This document shows positions 37,401 to 42,720 of a DNA stretch of 64,000 nt, piece after piece; the first letter of the stretch is position 1, and each line of letters opens with the position of its first letter. Origin of the DNA: Streptomyces coeruleorubidus. GTDB taxonomy: Bacteria > Actinomycetota > Actinomycetes > Streptomycetales > Streptomycetaceae. The stretch is taken from NCBI RefSeq assembly GCF_028885415.1, contig NZ_CP118527.1, positions 7,006,001 to 7,070,000 of the forward strand. The letters run 5' to 3'. The notes under the pieces are model-generated. The model saw only the letters and a program-made list of their open reading frames with translations, ran no database searches and was not told the DNA's origin. The position numbers were made by a program, and so were the translations under genes.

Positions 37401-37436
37401 CCGGCGCAGGGCGTCGAAGTCCGTGATCTCGCTCAT
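34401..37436 (-). CDS. large TPR-like helical-repeat protein paired with HSP90
   Basis: A 1011-residue soluble protein made almost wholly of helical repeats of the TPR type (for example WAAVAEAAEGVAGVDLD, ALFERAAELYAAAGDPGEAL, LWRELGNVQGLIRSVRARAWLAL). The N-terminal ~130 residues are different: MSEITDFDALRRAMAENSE, then a segment rich in Trp and Tyr (HTLHWVFKWVSSGMLDQP). There is no signal or membrane helix. The ATG overlaps the HSP90 stop (ATGA), so the two are made together. In eukaryotes TPR co-chaperones bind HSP90; a physical complex here is inference. A frame extends 693 bp upstream over the HSP90 gene but is only a shadow. Confidence 0.88.
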   Translation of the reverse strand: MSEITDFDALRRAMAENSEQPEGPARNARAEELLAAAEKLNIPLAVIEALGHQLKVYNYSSEKARMFVPFARLLRMWDERPDDFDEYETHTLHWVFKWVSSGMLDQPHIPLASIEKWLGEMEHRYRLAGHSERAVRSAEHSVAAHVGDLARAERAYAAWLAADRDGMADCHACELHGQGWWHAERGRDAEALELWRPVLEGEYACAHEPHAALASSLMPLLRLGRLDEARANHLRGLRLVRAMESMRGAYAEHVEFCALTGNEARGLELLAERPAYFTDDGQPQSRLGFMSVVALLMDRLTGLGLGDRQVPGPAGREWTAGELATHARAEALALAARFDERNGTTYVSERARARMEQRPLVERLPLGVRSVRPVPPPAPEVVTAAATGQPDLPALLAAARRLSDNLRPGAVEAWAAVAEAAEGVAGVDLDPRDRAEIADHEAMGLGPEGAALFERAAELYAAAGDPGEALAARARAAYVRALGGDVDAALAAVSGPYDEILALYAAGDTGIRQTASVLMGRARIQMRRAHEAGGPGAGEGPAEGAAGPDTVLGESMGSGSEAVLTEAEAAVREVLALVGGRDGEDVRLAARAAEAQAMLAELAGLRGDLKAAAGLFARGAAAFVAAGLPWFAVEYEARLASLAHHLGDMAEAERALRAALEHGGAQLEATGRAQLHLQLAELTGDRGDAVEAAQHALEASHWADEAGEGATLGAWARQQLGGFLLRQGRWAEAAEVLESALPDLTAETHGDGAIVQTQWWLGDCLSELGEHRAAAERRLQAAEIARHWPEQHDHATLAHLAGESLGQAGLADEADRAYARAGDLWRELGNVQGLIRSVRARAWLALRAQEGVEEARALMAEAVRECEAARDTAADAESRQQLVAELGHTHRQFGDLLARSVSDGADDASAGAVFEEALSQVLRSAEVFASLGDAALHSRTGAELAAGRLEADLGRPADAAARASAVLATYDGYGGYGGTETDDGDADGEAVRARRAEAEQILRLAEEEQPD

Positions 37437-39277
37437 GCCTGACCGTCCTCGCTGTGCGTGGCCCACTCCAGGAGGCCGAGGAACGCGCGGTTGAGCAGCG
37501 CCGAGTCCGCGGGCCTGAGCGGCCGCTGCGCCATCAGCAGCGCCTGCCCGTACAGCGACTCCGTGGCGGTGCCGATCAGCTCCGGGTCGTGCAGCGAGCT
37601 GATCCGCCGGACCAGCGGGTTGAGGTGGTTGAGCACCAGACGCGCGCGTGGGGCGCTGCCGCGCAGGGAGCCGAGGATGCCCGCCCACAGGTCGTCGGCC
37701 TGCGCCTCGGCGTCGGCGCGGGCCTGTTCGTGCCGGGCGTCCCGGTCGTCGAGGTGCAGCGCGGGCAGGGAGAGCGGGTGGAAGGCCCTCAGCACCACAT
37801 CGCAGCCCAGCGGGTCGAGCCGTGCCCGCGCCGCCGCCAGGAAGCCGGACAGGGCCAGCTCCTCGGCCGGGTCGACGGCATCCAGATGCGCGGTCACCGT
37901 GTCGGCGTCCAACTCGGCGACCACGGTGCCCGGCCGCACCGACGGCAGCGCCTGAACCAGCTCGCTGTCGTACGTGTAGCCGCCGTTGATCACGCCGATG
38001 CCCTGCGCGGACGCGATCGGCGCGACCTGCCGGTACTCCTCGACGGTCCGCGTGAAGTGCACCACCGGGTGCCGCTGCGCGAACTCCTCCAGGGACAGCC
38101 GCCCGTCGGTCGTCTCGAAGGGCAGCCACGGCAGCATCGTGCGCAGCATCTCCCGGTCGTGCCGGGCCAGGGACTTCACGCCCAGGTGGTGCACCGACAG
38201 GAACGCGGCCAGCCGCTCCGGATCACCGGCGGCCAGACCGGTCAGCCAGGCCCGGATCCGCTCGCCCAGTGCCTCCCGTACGGCGGCCAGCGTCTCGTCC
38301 TCGTACAGCGCCTCGCGCGATGCCGTCGGCCGCAGACTGTCCGTGTCCAGGACACAGCGCACGAAGAACGCCCAGTCGGGCAGCAGCTGTTCGGCCCGCT
38401 CGGTCAGCAACATGCCCTTGAGATGCACACGGTGCCCCGCGCGCTGCGCCGGGCTGACCGCCGACGGCAGCACGTACGCCACCCCGCGGACGCCGGCCAG
38501 CGGCACGGACAGGTCGATCGTGTCCAGTGGGGTGAAGCCGAACAGGTCGTGGCAGTGCCGGGCGAGGGCGACACGGCGGGTGGCCGGGCTCGGATACGAC
38601 CGGTCCCAGGGCGCCGGGAGGTCGGTGACCGGCTCGTCGCCCACCCGGACGTCGTACGGCAGCAGCGATCCGAAGTCCCGGGCCAGCGCCTCGACCCGCT
38701 CGGGCGTGAGCCACTGAGCGGCGCCGGCCCGCGCCACCAGATGCACGGTGGTGCCCGGTTCGGGGCGCTCGGCGTCCGGCAGCGTCCGCACGGTGTACGA
38801 GCCGTCGTCGGACGCCGTCCACTCCACCGGCGGCGCCCCGGGCGCAGCGGCGCTGCGGCTGACCACCCGGATCCGCTCGGCGACGACGAAACAGGCCAGC
38901 AGGCCGATGCCGAACTGCCCGAGAAAGTCGGAACGCGCCTCCTGCAGGCCATCGGCGCGCTTGGAACTGCGCCCGATCGTGGCGAGCAGGTCGTGCACGT
39001 CCGCCTCGGTGAGCCCGATCCCGGTGTCCTCGACGCGCAGGGCGCCGCCGTCCGCGGACAACCGCACCAGGGCCGGAGCGTCGGGTTCCGCCGCGCGTCT
39101 GGCGGTGATGGCGTCCACGGCGTTCTGCAACAGCTCGCGCAGATACACCTTGGGACTGGAGTAGAGGTGGTGGGAGAGCAGGTCCACCAGACCACGCAGG
39201 TCGACCTGGAAAGTATGAGGTGGACGGGGTGGACGGGGTGCCTGGGATGCCTGTGAGGTCTGGGAGTCCATCATCAC
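37433..39277 (-). CDS. HSP90-family (HtpG-like) GHKL ATPase
   Basis: A 614-residue HSP90-type protein. The N-terminal ATPase domain has YLRELLQNAVDAI (catalytic Glu48, Mg-binding Asn52), VEDTGIGLT (Asp84) and GQFGIGLLACF. The middle domain follows with DLPAPWDRSYPS, GVAYVLPSA and SLRPTASREALYED, where the Arg is the expected gamma-phosphate contact. The C-terminal dimerisation domain appears shorter or diverged, and the protein ends SEDGQA without an MEEVD motif. It is the first gene of a two-gene operon with the TPR protein and divergent from recG. Three consecutive ATG codons leave the exact start open. It is diverged enough from housekeeping HtpG to suggest a specialised role. Confidence 0.9.
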   Translation of the reverse strand: MMMDSQTSQASQAPRPPRPPHTFQVDLRGLVDLLSHHLYSSPKVYLRELLQNAVDAITARRAAEPDAPALVRLSADGGALRVEDTGIGLTEADVHDLLATIGRSSKRADGLQEARSDFLGQFGIGLLACFVVAERIRVVSRSAAAPGAPPVEWTASDDGSYTVRTLPDAERPEPGTTVHLVARAGAAQWLTPERVEALARDFGSLLPYDVRVGDEPVTDLPAPWDRSYPSPATRRVALARHCHDLFGFTPLDTIDLSVPLAGVRGVAYVLPSAVSPAQRAGHRVHLKGMLLTERAEQLLPDWAFFVRCVLDTDSLRPTASREALYEDETLAAVREALGERIRAWLTGLAAGDPERLAAFLSVHHLGVKSLARHDREMLRTMLPWLPFETTDGRLSLEEFAQRHPVVHFTRTVEEYRQVAPIASAQGIGVINGGYTYDSELVQALPSVRPGTVVAELDADTVTAHLDAVDPAEELALSGFLAAARARLDPLGCDVVLRAFHPLSLPALHLDDRDARHEQARADAEAQADDLWAGILGSLRGSAPRARLVLNHLNPLVRRISSLHDPELIGTATESLYGQALLMAQRPLRPADSALLNRAFLGLLEWATHSEDGQA

Positions 39278-39459: not shown

Positions 39460-42400
39460 ATGGATCTCGTGCCCGCACTTCACGAACCGCTGCAACAACC
39501 ACTGAAGTCGGTGCTCGGCCCCGCCACCGCGAAGGTGATGGCCGAGCACCTCGGCCTGCTCACCGTCGGCGACCTCCTCCACCACTACCCGCGCAGATAC
39601 GAGGAGCGCGGCCAGCTCACACACCTCGCCGACCTCCCCATGGACGAGCACGTCACGGTGGTCGCCCAGGTCGCCGACGCCCGCCTGCACACCTTCGCCT
39701 CCGCCAGGGCCCCGCGCGGCAAGGGCCAGCGCCTGGAGGTCACGATCACGGACGGCAGCGGCCGCCTCCAACTGGTCTTCTTCGGCAAGGGCGTTCACAA
39801 GCCCCACAAGGAGCTCCTGCCGGGCACACGCGCGATGTTCGCGGGCAAGGTCTCCGTCTTCAACCGCCGCCTCCAACTCGCCCACCCGGCCTACGAGTTG
39901 CTGCGCGGTGACGCCGAAGACCCTGGCGAGTCCGTCGAGACGTGGGCCGGCGCCCTCATCCCGATCTACCCGGCCACCGCCAAGCTGGAGTCCTGGAAGA
40001 TCGGCAAAGCGATCCAGACGGTCCTGCCCACCGCCCAGGAGGCCGTCGACCCGCTGCCGGACTCCCTGCGCCAGGGCCGCGGCCTGGTCCCCCTCCCCGA
40101 GGCACTCCTGAAGATCCACCGCCCGCACACCAAGGCGGACATCGAGGATGCCCGCGCCCGCCTCAAATGGGACGAGGCCTTCGTCCTCCAGGTCGCCCTG
40201 GCCCGCCGCCGCCACGCGGACGCCCAGCTCCCGGCGGCCCCCCGCAAACCCAGCCCCGACGGCCTCCTCACGGCCTTCGACGCCCGCCTCCCGTTCACCC
40301 TCACCGAGGGCCAGCAGCGGGTCTCCAAGGAGATCTTCGACGACCTGGCGACCGAGCATCCGATGCACCGGCTGTTGCAGGGGGAGGTCGGATCGGGCAA
40401 GGCCCAGCCCCTCGACTCGCTGGTGCTCACACCCATGGGCTTCCGCCCCATGGGGGATCTGCGGGTGGGCGACGAGGTGGTGGTGCCGGACGGGGACACC
40501 GCGCTGATCGATGGCGTCTTTCCTCAGGGAGAGCGCGATGTGTGGCGCTTGGTCCTGTCCGACGGGAGTTCCGTCGAGTGCGACGACGAGCATCTCTGGA
40601 TCGTCGGCACGAGCTGTGGTGGGCACCGTGGCCAGGCTCCCAAGGTCATGACGACCCGGGAGATCCGTCTCGACACGTTCAAGGCCGACGGGTCGTCGAA
40701 GTGGTACATCCCGCCGGCGAAGCCGGTCGATCTCGGCGGCGACGCCGGGCTGCCCCTGGACCCGTACCTGATCGGACTGCTGCTGGGGGACGGTTCGTTC
40801 CGGCACAATCTCCGTCTCTCCACCATCGACGACGAGATCCGTGACGCGGTAACGGCGGCAGTAGCGCCCGAATGCCGGCTGGTACCGGTGAAGGGATCGC
40901 ACCGTGACTACACGATCCAGCTCAAGCAGCGTGCCGGAGGAGCGCGCAACCCAGTGATCCAGGTCCTGCGCGAGTTGGGCCTCTGGGGAACGACGTCCCA
41001 CGACAAGTTCGTCCCTGAGGATTTCAAGAACGCTCCGATCAAGGACCGTCTTGCCGTGTTGCAGGGACTGCTGGACACGGACGGCACTGTCCAAGCCGAC
41101 GGCATGAGTATCTCCCTCTGCGCGGCTTCGCGCCGGCTCGCGGAGGACGTCGCATGGCTCGTACGTTCTCTGGGCGGCCGGGCGCGAGTGCTGCCGAAGA
41201 AGGCCGCGTACAACGTGCAGGTGTCCCTGCCGGACGCTTACGCCCCGTTCCGGCTCACCCGCAAAGCAGAACGCGTGCGTCCGGGGCCGAAGTACAGCAC
41301 GTTCCGACGCGGCATCCGGGCGGTCGAGTACGTGGGGCGGAAGCCCGTCCAGTGCATCAGCGTCGCCCACCCGAGCCATGCATACGTCACCGACAACTTC
41401 ACCGTCACCCACAACACCATGGTTGCCCTGCGCGCCATGCTCGCCGTGGTCGACGCCGGCGGCCAGGCCGCCATGCTCGCGCCCACCGAAGTGCTCGCGC
41501 AGCAGCACCACCGCTCGATCGTCGAGATGATGGGCGAGCTGGCCGAGGGCGGCATGCTGGGCGGGGCCGAGCAGGCCACCAAGGTGGTGCTGCTCACCGG
41601 ATCCATGGGCGCGGCCGCCCGCCGCCAGGCCCTGCTCGACCTCACCACCGGCGAGGCCGGCATCGTCATCGGCACGCATGCGCTGATCGAGGACAAGGTG
41701 CAGTTCCACGACCTGGGCCTGGTCGTGGTCGACGAACAGCACCGCTTCGGCGTCGAGCAGCGCGACGCCCTGCGCGGCAAGGGCAAACAGCCCTCACACC
41801 TCCTGGTCATGACGGCCACGCCGATTCCGCGCACGGTCGCCATGACGGTCTTCGGCGACCTGGAGACCTCCGTCCTCGACCAGCTCCCGGCCGGCCGCTC
41901 GCCGATCGCCAGCCATGTCGTCCCGGCCGCCGACAAGCCCCACTTCCTGTCCCGCGCCTGGGAACGGGTCCGCGAGGAAGTGGGCAACGGCCATCAGGCG
42001 TACGTGGTCTGCCCCCGCATCGGCGATGAGGAGGACGACCCGAAGAAGACCGGCAAGAAGAAGTCCCCGGAGGCCGCGGCGTCCCCCGAGGACGCCGCCG
42101 AGAAGCGCCCGCCTCTCGCCGTCCTCGACGTCGCCGAACAGCTCTCCAAGGGCCCCCTGAAGGGCCTCCGCGTCGAGGTGCTGCACGGCCGTATGCACCC
42201 CGACGACAAGGACGCGGTCATGCGCCGCTTCGCCGCCGGGGAGACGGACGTGCTGGTCGCCACGACGGTCATCGAGGTCGGCGTCAACGTCCCCAACGCC
42301 ACGGTGATGGTGATCATGGACGCCGACCGCTTCGGCGTCTCCCAGCTTCACCAGTTGCGCGGCCGCGTCGGCCGTGGCTCGGCCCCCGGCCTGTGCCTCC

Positions 42401-42720
42401 TGGTCAGCGAGATGCCCGAGGCGAGCCCCGCCCGCCAGCGCCTGAACGCGGTCGCCTCCACCCTCGACGGCTTCGAACTCTCCCGCATCGACCTCGAACA
42501 ACGCCGGGAGGGCGACGTCCTCGGCCAGGCCCAGTCGGGCGCCCGCACCAGCCTGCGGATGCTCGCGGTCATCGAGGACGAGGAGATCATCGCGGAGGCG
42601 AGGGAAGAGGCAGCAGCGGTGGTGGCCAAGGACCCGGAGCTGACCCGCCTCCCGGCGCTGCGGACGGCGCTGGACGCCCTTCTGGACGAGGAGAGGGAGC
42701 AGTACCTGGAAAAGGGATGA
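39460..42720 (+). CDS. recG: ATP-dependent DNA helicase RecG, interrupted by an intein
   Basis: The 1086-codon precursor would yield a 748-residue RecG after removal of the intein (residues 315-652), the usual length for Streptomyces. RecG unwinds and reverses stalled replication forks. The wedge/OB domain occupies the first ~200 residues (LGLLTVGDLLHHYPRRYEERG). The Walker A reads GEVGSGK, then the intein, then TMVALRAML. Later motifs are DEQHRFGVEQRDALRGKG (II), TATPIPRTVAM (III), VEVLHGRMHPDDK (IV), VATTVIEVGVNVPNA (V) and QLRGRVGRG (VI). Because the intein splits Walker A, the helicase is inactive until splicing. The ATG at 39460 (MDLVPALHEPL) is chosen by comparison with the family. Confidence 0.95.
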   Translation: MDLVPALHEPLQQPLKSVLGPATAKVMAEHLGLLTVGDLLHHYPRRYEERGQLTHLADLPMDEHVTVVAQVADARLHTFASARAPRGKGQRLEVTITDGSGRLQLVFFGKGVHKPHKELLPGTRAMFAGKVSVFNRRLQLAHPAYELLRGDAEDPGESVETWAGALIPIYPATAKLESWKIGKAIQTVLPTAQEAVDPLPDSLRQGRGLVPLPEALLKIHRPHTKADIEDARARLKWDEAFVLQVALARRRHADAQLPAAPRKPSPDGLLTAFDARLPFTLTEGQQRVSKEIFDDLATEHPMHRLLQGEVGSGKAQPLDSLVLTPMGFRPMGDLRVGDEVVVPDGDTALIDGVFPQGERDVWRLVLSDGSSVECDDEHLWIVGTSCGGHRGQAPKVMTTREIRLDTFKADGSSKWYIPPAKPVDLGGDAGLPLDPYLIGLLLGDGSFRHNLRLSTIDDEIRDAVTAAVAPECRLVPVKGSHRDYTIQLKQRAGGARNPVIQVLRELGLWGTTSHDKFVPEDFKNAPIKDRLAVLQGLLDTDGTVQADGMSISLCAASRRLAEDVAWLVRSLGGRARVLPKKAAYNVQVSLPDAYAPFRLTRKAERVRPGPKYSTFRRGIRAVEYVGRKPVQCISVAHPSHAYVTDNFTVTHNTMVALRAMLAVVDAGGQAAMLAPTEVLAQQHHRSIVEMMGELAEGGMLGGAEQATKVVLLTGSMGAAARRQALLDLTTGEAGIVIGTHALIEDKVQFHDLGLVVVDEQHRFGVEQRDALRGKGKQPSHLLVMTATPIPRTVAMTVFGDLETSVLDQLPAGRSPIASHVVPAADKPHFLSRAWERVREEVGNGHQAYVVCPRIGDEEDDPKKTGKKKSPEAAASPEDAAEKRPPLAVLDVAEQLSKGPLKGLRVEVLHGRMHPDDKDAVMRRFAAGETDVLVATTVIEVGVNVPNATVMVIMDADRFGVSQLHQLRGRVGRGSAPGLCLLVSEMPEASPARQRLNAVASTLDGFELSRIDLEQRREGDVLGQAQSGARTSLRMLAVIEDEEIIAEAREEAAAVVAKDPELTRLPALRTALDALLDEEREQYLEKG
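40402..41415 (+). other. class 3 intein with LAGLIDADG homing endonuclease, inside recG
   Basis: 338 in-frame codons inserted between the Lys and Thr of Walker A (GSGK/T). Block A starts AQPLDSLVLTPMGF with Ala at position 1, so there is no Cys/Ser nucleophile there. Block B is ECDDEHLW with His64 and Trp66. Block F has Cys318 in PVQCIS, and block G ends TVTHN with Thr336, His337 and terminal Asn338; the +1 residue is Thr. The Trp/Cys/Thr set is the signature of class 3 inteins, which start splicing from the block F Cys. Two dodecapeptide motifs, LIGLLLGDGSF (about 123-133) and LQGLLDTDGTV (220-230), mark a homing endonuclease that looks intact. Codons are more often A/T-ending than in the flanking exteins. 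Confidence 0.95.

Follow-up and report, generated by a model that had tools for sequence, protein, structure and literature searches.

The window (the whole stretch of 64,000 nucleotides that was analysed) contains on its plus strand the open reading frame of recG, running from an ATG at 39460 to a stop codon ending at 42720. Translation of the window bears out the insertion described in an earlier, sequence-only reading of this DNA: 338 codons, stop-free and in frame, split the Walker A motif GSGKT of RecG between K and T, so that the insert follows GSGK and ends in THN immediately before T (Table 1). The host protein was recognized by the NCBIfam equivalog model NF008167 in two stretches with a score of 1128.7 bits (cut-off 995), the C-terminal stretch beginning at residue 650 and the C-extein at residue 653. 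A search of the whole genome to which the window belongs found a single copy of the intein, and its best named match, in a search that may omit the window's nearest records, was a Streptomyces coeruleorubidus intein with 95% identity. Chance is excluded as the origin of the observed insert, because 318 of 392 Streptomyces genomes match the pattern of the empty site and 70 others have an insert there, none of the 70 matching that pattern. The gene divergent from recG (37433-39277, minus strand) encodes an HSP90-like ATPase domain (HATPase_c_3, 33.3 bits; cut-off 25).

Table 1. Features of the interrupted recG gene, in window coordinates.
Feature	Position	Strand	Basis
RecG N-extein, ending GEVGSGK (first half of Walker A)	39460..40401	+	NF008167, reading
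P-loop serine codon TCG; TCN is the type of occupied genes	40393..40395	+	TCN in 114/118 occupied vs 69/109 empty
Class 3 intein with homing endonuclease, 338 codons (well-supported assignment)	40402..41415	+	Reading, Pfam, PDB matches, conservation
Block B His64-Leu65-Trp66, part of DDEHLW	40591..40599	+	His64 and Trp66 invariant, 118/118
LAGLIDADG motif 1, residues 122-131, acid Asp130 (40789-40791)	40765..40794	+	By eye; Asp130 in 80/115 distinct intein DNAs
LAGLIDADG motif 2, residues 220-229, acid Asp227 (41080-41082)	41059..41088	+	Pfam LAGLIDADG_3, residues 217-263; Asp227 in 88/115
Block F Cys318, expected first nucleophile	41353..41355	+	118/118
Block G Thr336-His337-Asn338	41407..41415	+	118/118; His337 demanded by extraction pattern
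RecG C-extein from +1 Thr, including stop codon	41416..42720	+	NF008167, reading
ATG, second C-extein codon; type of occupied genes	41419..41421	+	ATG in 117/118 occupied vs 70/109 empty

As a type the insert is ordinary, being of a kind already known and common in the genus Streptomyces. Class 3 inteins are defined by Trp at B:12, Cys at F:4 and Thr at G:5 with no nucleophile at position 1 (PMC3196547, PMC5222942), and a DxxH form has been described (PMC6195587). The residues read in the insert are Ala1, Asp61-x-x-His64, Trp66, Cys318, Thr336-His337-Asn338 and a +1 Thr, and all of those listed by the sequence-only reading (that is, all but Asp61) were found where it had placed them. Positions 1, 61, 64, 66, 318, 336, 337 and 338 are invariant in 118 of 118 distinct recG intein loci, as well as in 115 distinct intein DNAs, and the +1 Thr occurs in 138 of 138 loci, the pattern used for extraction having demanded His337 and a +1 Ser/Thr and left the other signature positions free. 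Position 1 is therefore Ala, and not Cys, Ser or Thr, in all 118 loci; Trp66, Cys318 and Thr336 occupy B:12, F:4 and G:5, likewise in all 118, and the B:10 His, the penultimate His, the terminal Asn and the +1 Ser/Thr/Cys of the class are represented by His64, His337, Asn338 and the +1 Thr. The same signature is borne by a RecG intein from another genus of the family (L307), which lies beyond the 118 pattern-found loci, having been missed by the extraction pattern because of its C-extein.

In a tree of 48 rows, in which class 1 was represented by one family (DnaB) and several long branches were flagged, 42 rows of class 3 type stood apart from six class 1 DnaB inteins (100/100). The 16 RecG intein rows formed one clade (99/97), the sister of which (98/93) was the intein of L182, whose host is helicase-like (Pfam Helicase_C). 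Comparison of the family profile with the PDB gave matches to class 3 DnaB inteins (6bs8, 6rix) and gp41-1 over residues 3-71, and to PI-SceI over residues 120-266 (E 0.0007); Pfam intein splicing-domain models gave no match to the insert at E up to 0.001. The earlier assignment, a class 3 intein with an intact-looking endonuclease in the Walker A motif of RecG, holds on every sequence test that was run, and the splitting of this motif by a class 3 intein can be regarded as well supported.

Several known systems share part of this arrangement. The mycobacterial class 3 P-loop inteins of DnaB (Msm DnaBi1, Mch DnaB1, Mle DnaB) resemble the RecG intein in WCT, Ala1, DxxH, P-loop site and THN end (PMC6195587, PMC5222942), but they are mini-inteins in a DnaB host with a +1 Ser, whereas the RecG intein has a +1 Thr and a full endonuclease. 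The class 3 PhoH inteins of Actinobacteria have in common with it the class 3 signature, a LAGLIDADG domain and the +1 Thr, but differ in their site (RGR^T of PhoH), are about 40% identical to it and form a separate clade. Both DnaB class 3 inteins and the PhoH class 3 inteins of M. fortuitum and M. xenopi have been published (PMC6195587). Mycobacteriophage TerL1-a inteins also lie at a P-loop Lys^Thr site, called classic (PMC5050341), but in a phage terminase, and they are likened here by published description, not by sequence.

In many Actinobacteria, PhoH carries class 3 inteins with about 40% identity at RGR^T (e.g., L167, L185, L193, L215), the host being Pfam-confirmed for L185 and the other PhoH hosts named by flanking motif; in some Streptomyces (e.g., G017, G138) PhoH and RecG inteins occur together. 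Others were found at VEGN^T, a non-P-loop site, in CHAP-domain proteins (L308 and L309, also L208 and L209), with Pfam CHAP scores of 33.6 bits for L308 (cut-off 26) and 22.3 bits, below the cut-off, for L309, the host proteins of these two being probable peptidoglycan hydrolases. The host of two further class 3 inteins (L172, L177), inserted at VQGN^T, is a coupling-type protein of conjugation, with a Pfam T4SS-DNA_transf match in L172, and G-K/R/N^T is an insertion-site form common to unrelated hosts of class 3 inteins.

With regard to the endonuclease, Pfam LAGLIDADG_3 matches the insert with 36.2 bits (cut-off 22.5) and, besides this domain, both motif acids of a LAGLIDADG endonuclease, Asp130 and Asp227, are present in the window. 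D or E is found at both of these positions in 72 of 90 full-length copies as opposed to 8 of 28 shortened copies, the latter making up 28 of the 118 distinct occupied recG loci. Median Ka/Ks was taken from non-independent pairs with extein Ks of 0.1-1.0 only and with intein Ks near 1, which is close to saturation. For splicing part, endonuclease part and extein it amounted to 0.090, 0.149 and 0.139, respectively, among full-length copies (86 rows, 3,620 pairs) and to 0.270, 0.495 and 0.219 among shortened ones (28 rows, 376 pairs). The presence of the splicing residues in 118 of 118 loci, the decay of the endonuclease acids and this Ka/Ks pattern together indicate that splicing is kept where the endonuclease decays. 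Mean GC at third positions was 0.811 for full-length inteins (0.950 for their exteins) and 0.894 for shortened ones (exteins 0.942), which fits a newcomer that would be adjusting after loss of mobility. In two shortened inteins, L155 (327 residues) and L156 (314 residues), low-complexity Gly- and Gln-rich stretches are found in place of the endonuclease.

Read jointly, these features make it very probable that the insert is a class 3 intein with a LAGLIDADG homing endonuclease at K^T of RecG, one that would splice through Cys318 and spread by cutting empty recG. By analogy with established class 3 work, Cys318 would attack the Lys-Ala1 junction to give the block F branched intermediate, the N-extein would be transferred to the +1 Thr, and Asn338 would then cyclise, restoring a seamless GSGKT P-loop; with the ATP-binding loop split by the insert, a working helicase is expected to depend on splicing. 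The endonuclease, in turn, would cut empty recG across the GSGKT codons, repair from an occupied copy would spread the intein, and copies with a dead endonuclease would persist since only precise removal spares the P-loop.

That splicing has been lost and RecG is inactive in the window strain is highly improbable: one class 3 intein pseudogene has been published, but it lacks the F:4 Cys and the B:10 His (PMC3196547), both of which are present in 118 of 118 recG inteins, and carriers show constraint on their exteins (Ka/Ks 0.139 where the intein is full-length). We also consider it unlikely that the intein is kept as a post-translational switch, with splicing delayed or blocked under stress and RecG activity following conditions. 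A precedent exists in the class 3 DnaBi1 intein of M. smegmatis, which is inhibited by H2O2 via a disulfide of the catalytic Cys (PMC6195587), and a switch would be in line with the splicing residues retained in copies with a decayed endonuclease and with a second Cys, Cys60 beside block B, found in 113 of 115 recG inteins; this residue, however, may be structural, the patchy occupancy and tree conflict described below fit a mobile element, and any switch must be dispensable, as 318 of 392 Streptomyces genomes are without the intein. By analogy with DnaBi1, where another Cys plays this part (PMC6195587), the non-catalytic Cys60 (40579-40581) could pair with Cys318 on oxidation.

When the empty site was called by a degenerate pattern with up to 2 mismatches, the 392 Streptomyces genomes divided into 70 with an intein at the recG site, 318 with an uninterrupted site and 4 assigned to neither class (G001, G049, G098, G118), three of these four lacking an N-extein match too. 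Among the 70 carriers, 44 have a full-length match and 26 a match with a gap in the endonuclease region. In 150 genomes of the family (Streptomyces included), RecG inteins were found in two other genera, one full-length (L207) and one shortened (L307), and an intein occupies the same GSGK^T site in a Rhodococcus plasmid protein annotated as 'helicase-related', the best score of which against RecG models was 647.7 bits, below that model's cut-off of 718; this 47.2% match occurs in three Rhodococcus plasmid records, one of which was inspected in detail. According to the tree, the RecG inteins of the two other genera and that of the Rhodococcus plasmid belong to the same clade. The description of RecG as an uncommon host has to be abandoned, given an intein in 70 of 392 Streptomyces genomes and the listing of RecG as a host in a 2018 review (PMC5874633), Table 1 of which names it as a bacterial intein-containing protein; that entry gives the organism only as 'Eubacteria', without class or site. 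Beyond this review, no other mention of RecG as a host was found in the literature examined, relative to which RecG joins the hosts of class 3 inteins, in Streptomyces, in two other genera of the family and on a Rhodococcus plasmid.

Intein occupancy requires 45 changes on the recG extein tree, whereas 200 shuffles averaged 75.7 and never needed fewer than 63; the tree holds 227 distinct rows (109 empty, 90 full-length and 28 shortened), with an excess of occupied genes, since it was through their intein that named loci had been located. Comparison of intein and extein trees, as proposed in the sequence-only reading, gave a conflict far above that of the control: of 59 supported splits in the intein tree of the 118 occupied rows, 40 contradict supported splits of the extein tree and 15 recur in it, while between the N-half and C-half of the extein 10 of 51 supported N-half splits are in conflict and 30 recur. 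Under a stricter support cut the conflicts were 26 of 45 against 3 of 29 in the control. Since the intein and extein trees conflict far more than do the two extein halves, the intein appears to move, and the earlier suggestion that the element may still be mobile is strengthened by this conflict and by the target-site association presented below, cutting itself being predicted.

Intein and extein distances correlate nonetheless (r 0.77), and Ks in full-length copies is about 1.05 for the intein vs 0.44 for the extein, so that much of the history is vertical and not recent spread. Recent transfer was also sought through low intein divergence and rejected: in only 5 of all pairs of the 118 occupied rows was intein divergence less than 0.6 times extein divergence, and intein Ks was higher, so the case for movement rests on the tree conflict. 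A recent phage donor found no support: tblastn matches in 621 of 50,697 phage records were all below 60% identity; one scan of viral contigs, with a single protein query reaching close relatives only, confirmed no donor, and among plasmids matches were obtained in 37 of 72,556 records, the best being 47.2%. The resulting picture is one of movement plus long vertical stretches.

The interesting part, we infer, is a polymorphism of the putative target, the evidence for which is statistical. TCN encodes the P-loop Ser in 114 of 118 occupied vs 69 of 109 empty recG genes, and ATG stands as second C-extein codon in 117 of 118 vs 70 of 109, the window alleles being TCG and ATG. As a combined trait, which was defined post hoc after the data had been seen, TCN and ATG occur together in 113 of 118 occupied vs 48 of 109 empty genes (Fisher p 5e-19). 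In a second set of 40 empty genes, previously unused and picked among those most like the window RecG, the combination was found in 15; these genes come from the same 392 genomes, since a further draw from the genus held only genomes of the first 392. For independent pairs differing in occupancy (30 pairs, means of 200 pairings), taken from a tree that leaves out 12 codons to each side of the junction, the combined trait went the same way in 14.0, the opposite way in 0.3 and was undecided in 15.7 (median p 0.00012, range 7.6e-6 to 0.0074), and the single traits gave 10.1 vs 1.4 for TCN (median p 0.021) and 10.0 vs 1.0 for ATG (median p 0.012). Ten other conserved Ser codons, only two of which vary appreciably, showed no difference with occupancy (smallest p 0.3), and among 132 variable first- or second-position columns of recG both measures put the two flanking columns in first and second place.

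This association suggests an endonuclease footprint and naturally resistant alleles. Protein splicing cannot explain the Ser-codon half, as TCN and AGC both encode serine; the Met/Leu half could act through splicing. On balance we think it likely that the endonuclease reads RecG P-loop DNA from at least -9 (TCN) to +4 (ATG), and that Streptomyces recG genes with AGC-Ser or with Leu for Met would be naturally resistant. Five occupied genes are without the TCN and ATG type (L055, L087, L101, L146, L150), and exceptions elsewhere are AGC in L307 of another genus and AAG in place of ATG in the Rhodococcus plasmid gene. Against the resistance reading stand these exceptions, the post hoc definition of the combined trait, the possible splicing route for the Met/Leu half and the 48 of 109 empty genes that are permissive (TCN and ATG) yet empty.

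The same link between these codons and occupancy may possibly reflect, in place of endonuclease specificity, shared ancestry or flanking DNA copied together with the intein, an explanation to which we give real but lesser weight. The Ser codon class is slow to change, so lineages keep it, the tree-aware tests of single traits are modest (median p 0.021 and 0.012), and the combined trait was chosen post hoc; weak partial correlations between flank and intein distances were also obtained, ranging over five distance bins from 0.07 to 0.27 and reaching p 0.005 in three bins. This flank signal, however, is not highest at the junction (0.079 for the 8 codons next to it vs 0.273 for codons 40-59), and co-copying of the flank with the intein was rejected for being weak and off-centre in this way. 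Shared ancestry and co-copying are further opposed by neighbouring third positions, which are free to vary in occupied genes, by the independent pairs for the combined trait (14.0 vs 0.3), by the rank of the two columns (first and second of 132 in recG) and by the second set of 40 empty genes, in which the prediction held.

That homing endonucleases can meet resistant target alleles is not a new idea in yeast. In the literature examined, in which subscription papers are thinly covered, nothing was found on the class, site, Streptomyces distribution or target alleles of RecG inteins. At one recG site within one genus, a class 3 intein is live in some genomes, decaying in others and absent from still others, which provides a natural experiment on the homing cycle, and the predicted resistance letters turn the question of patchy occupancy into a simple cleavage assay. 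If the proposed specificity is true, silent codon choice in the P-loop of a housekeeping gene would help to decide which species can be invaded.
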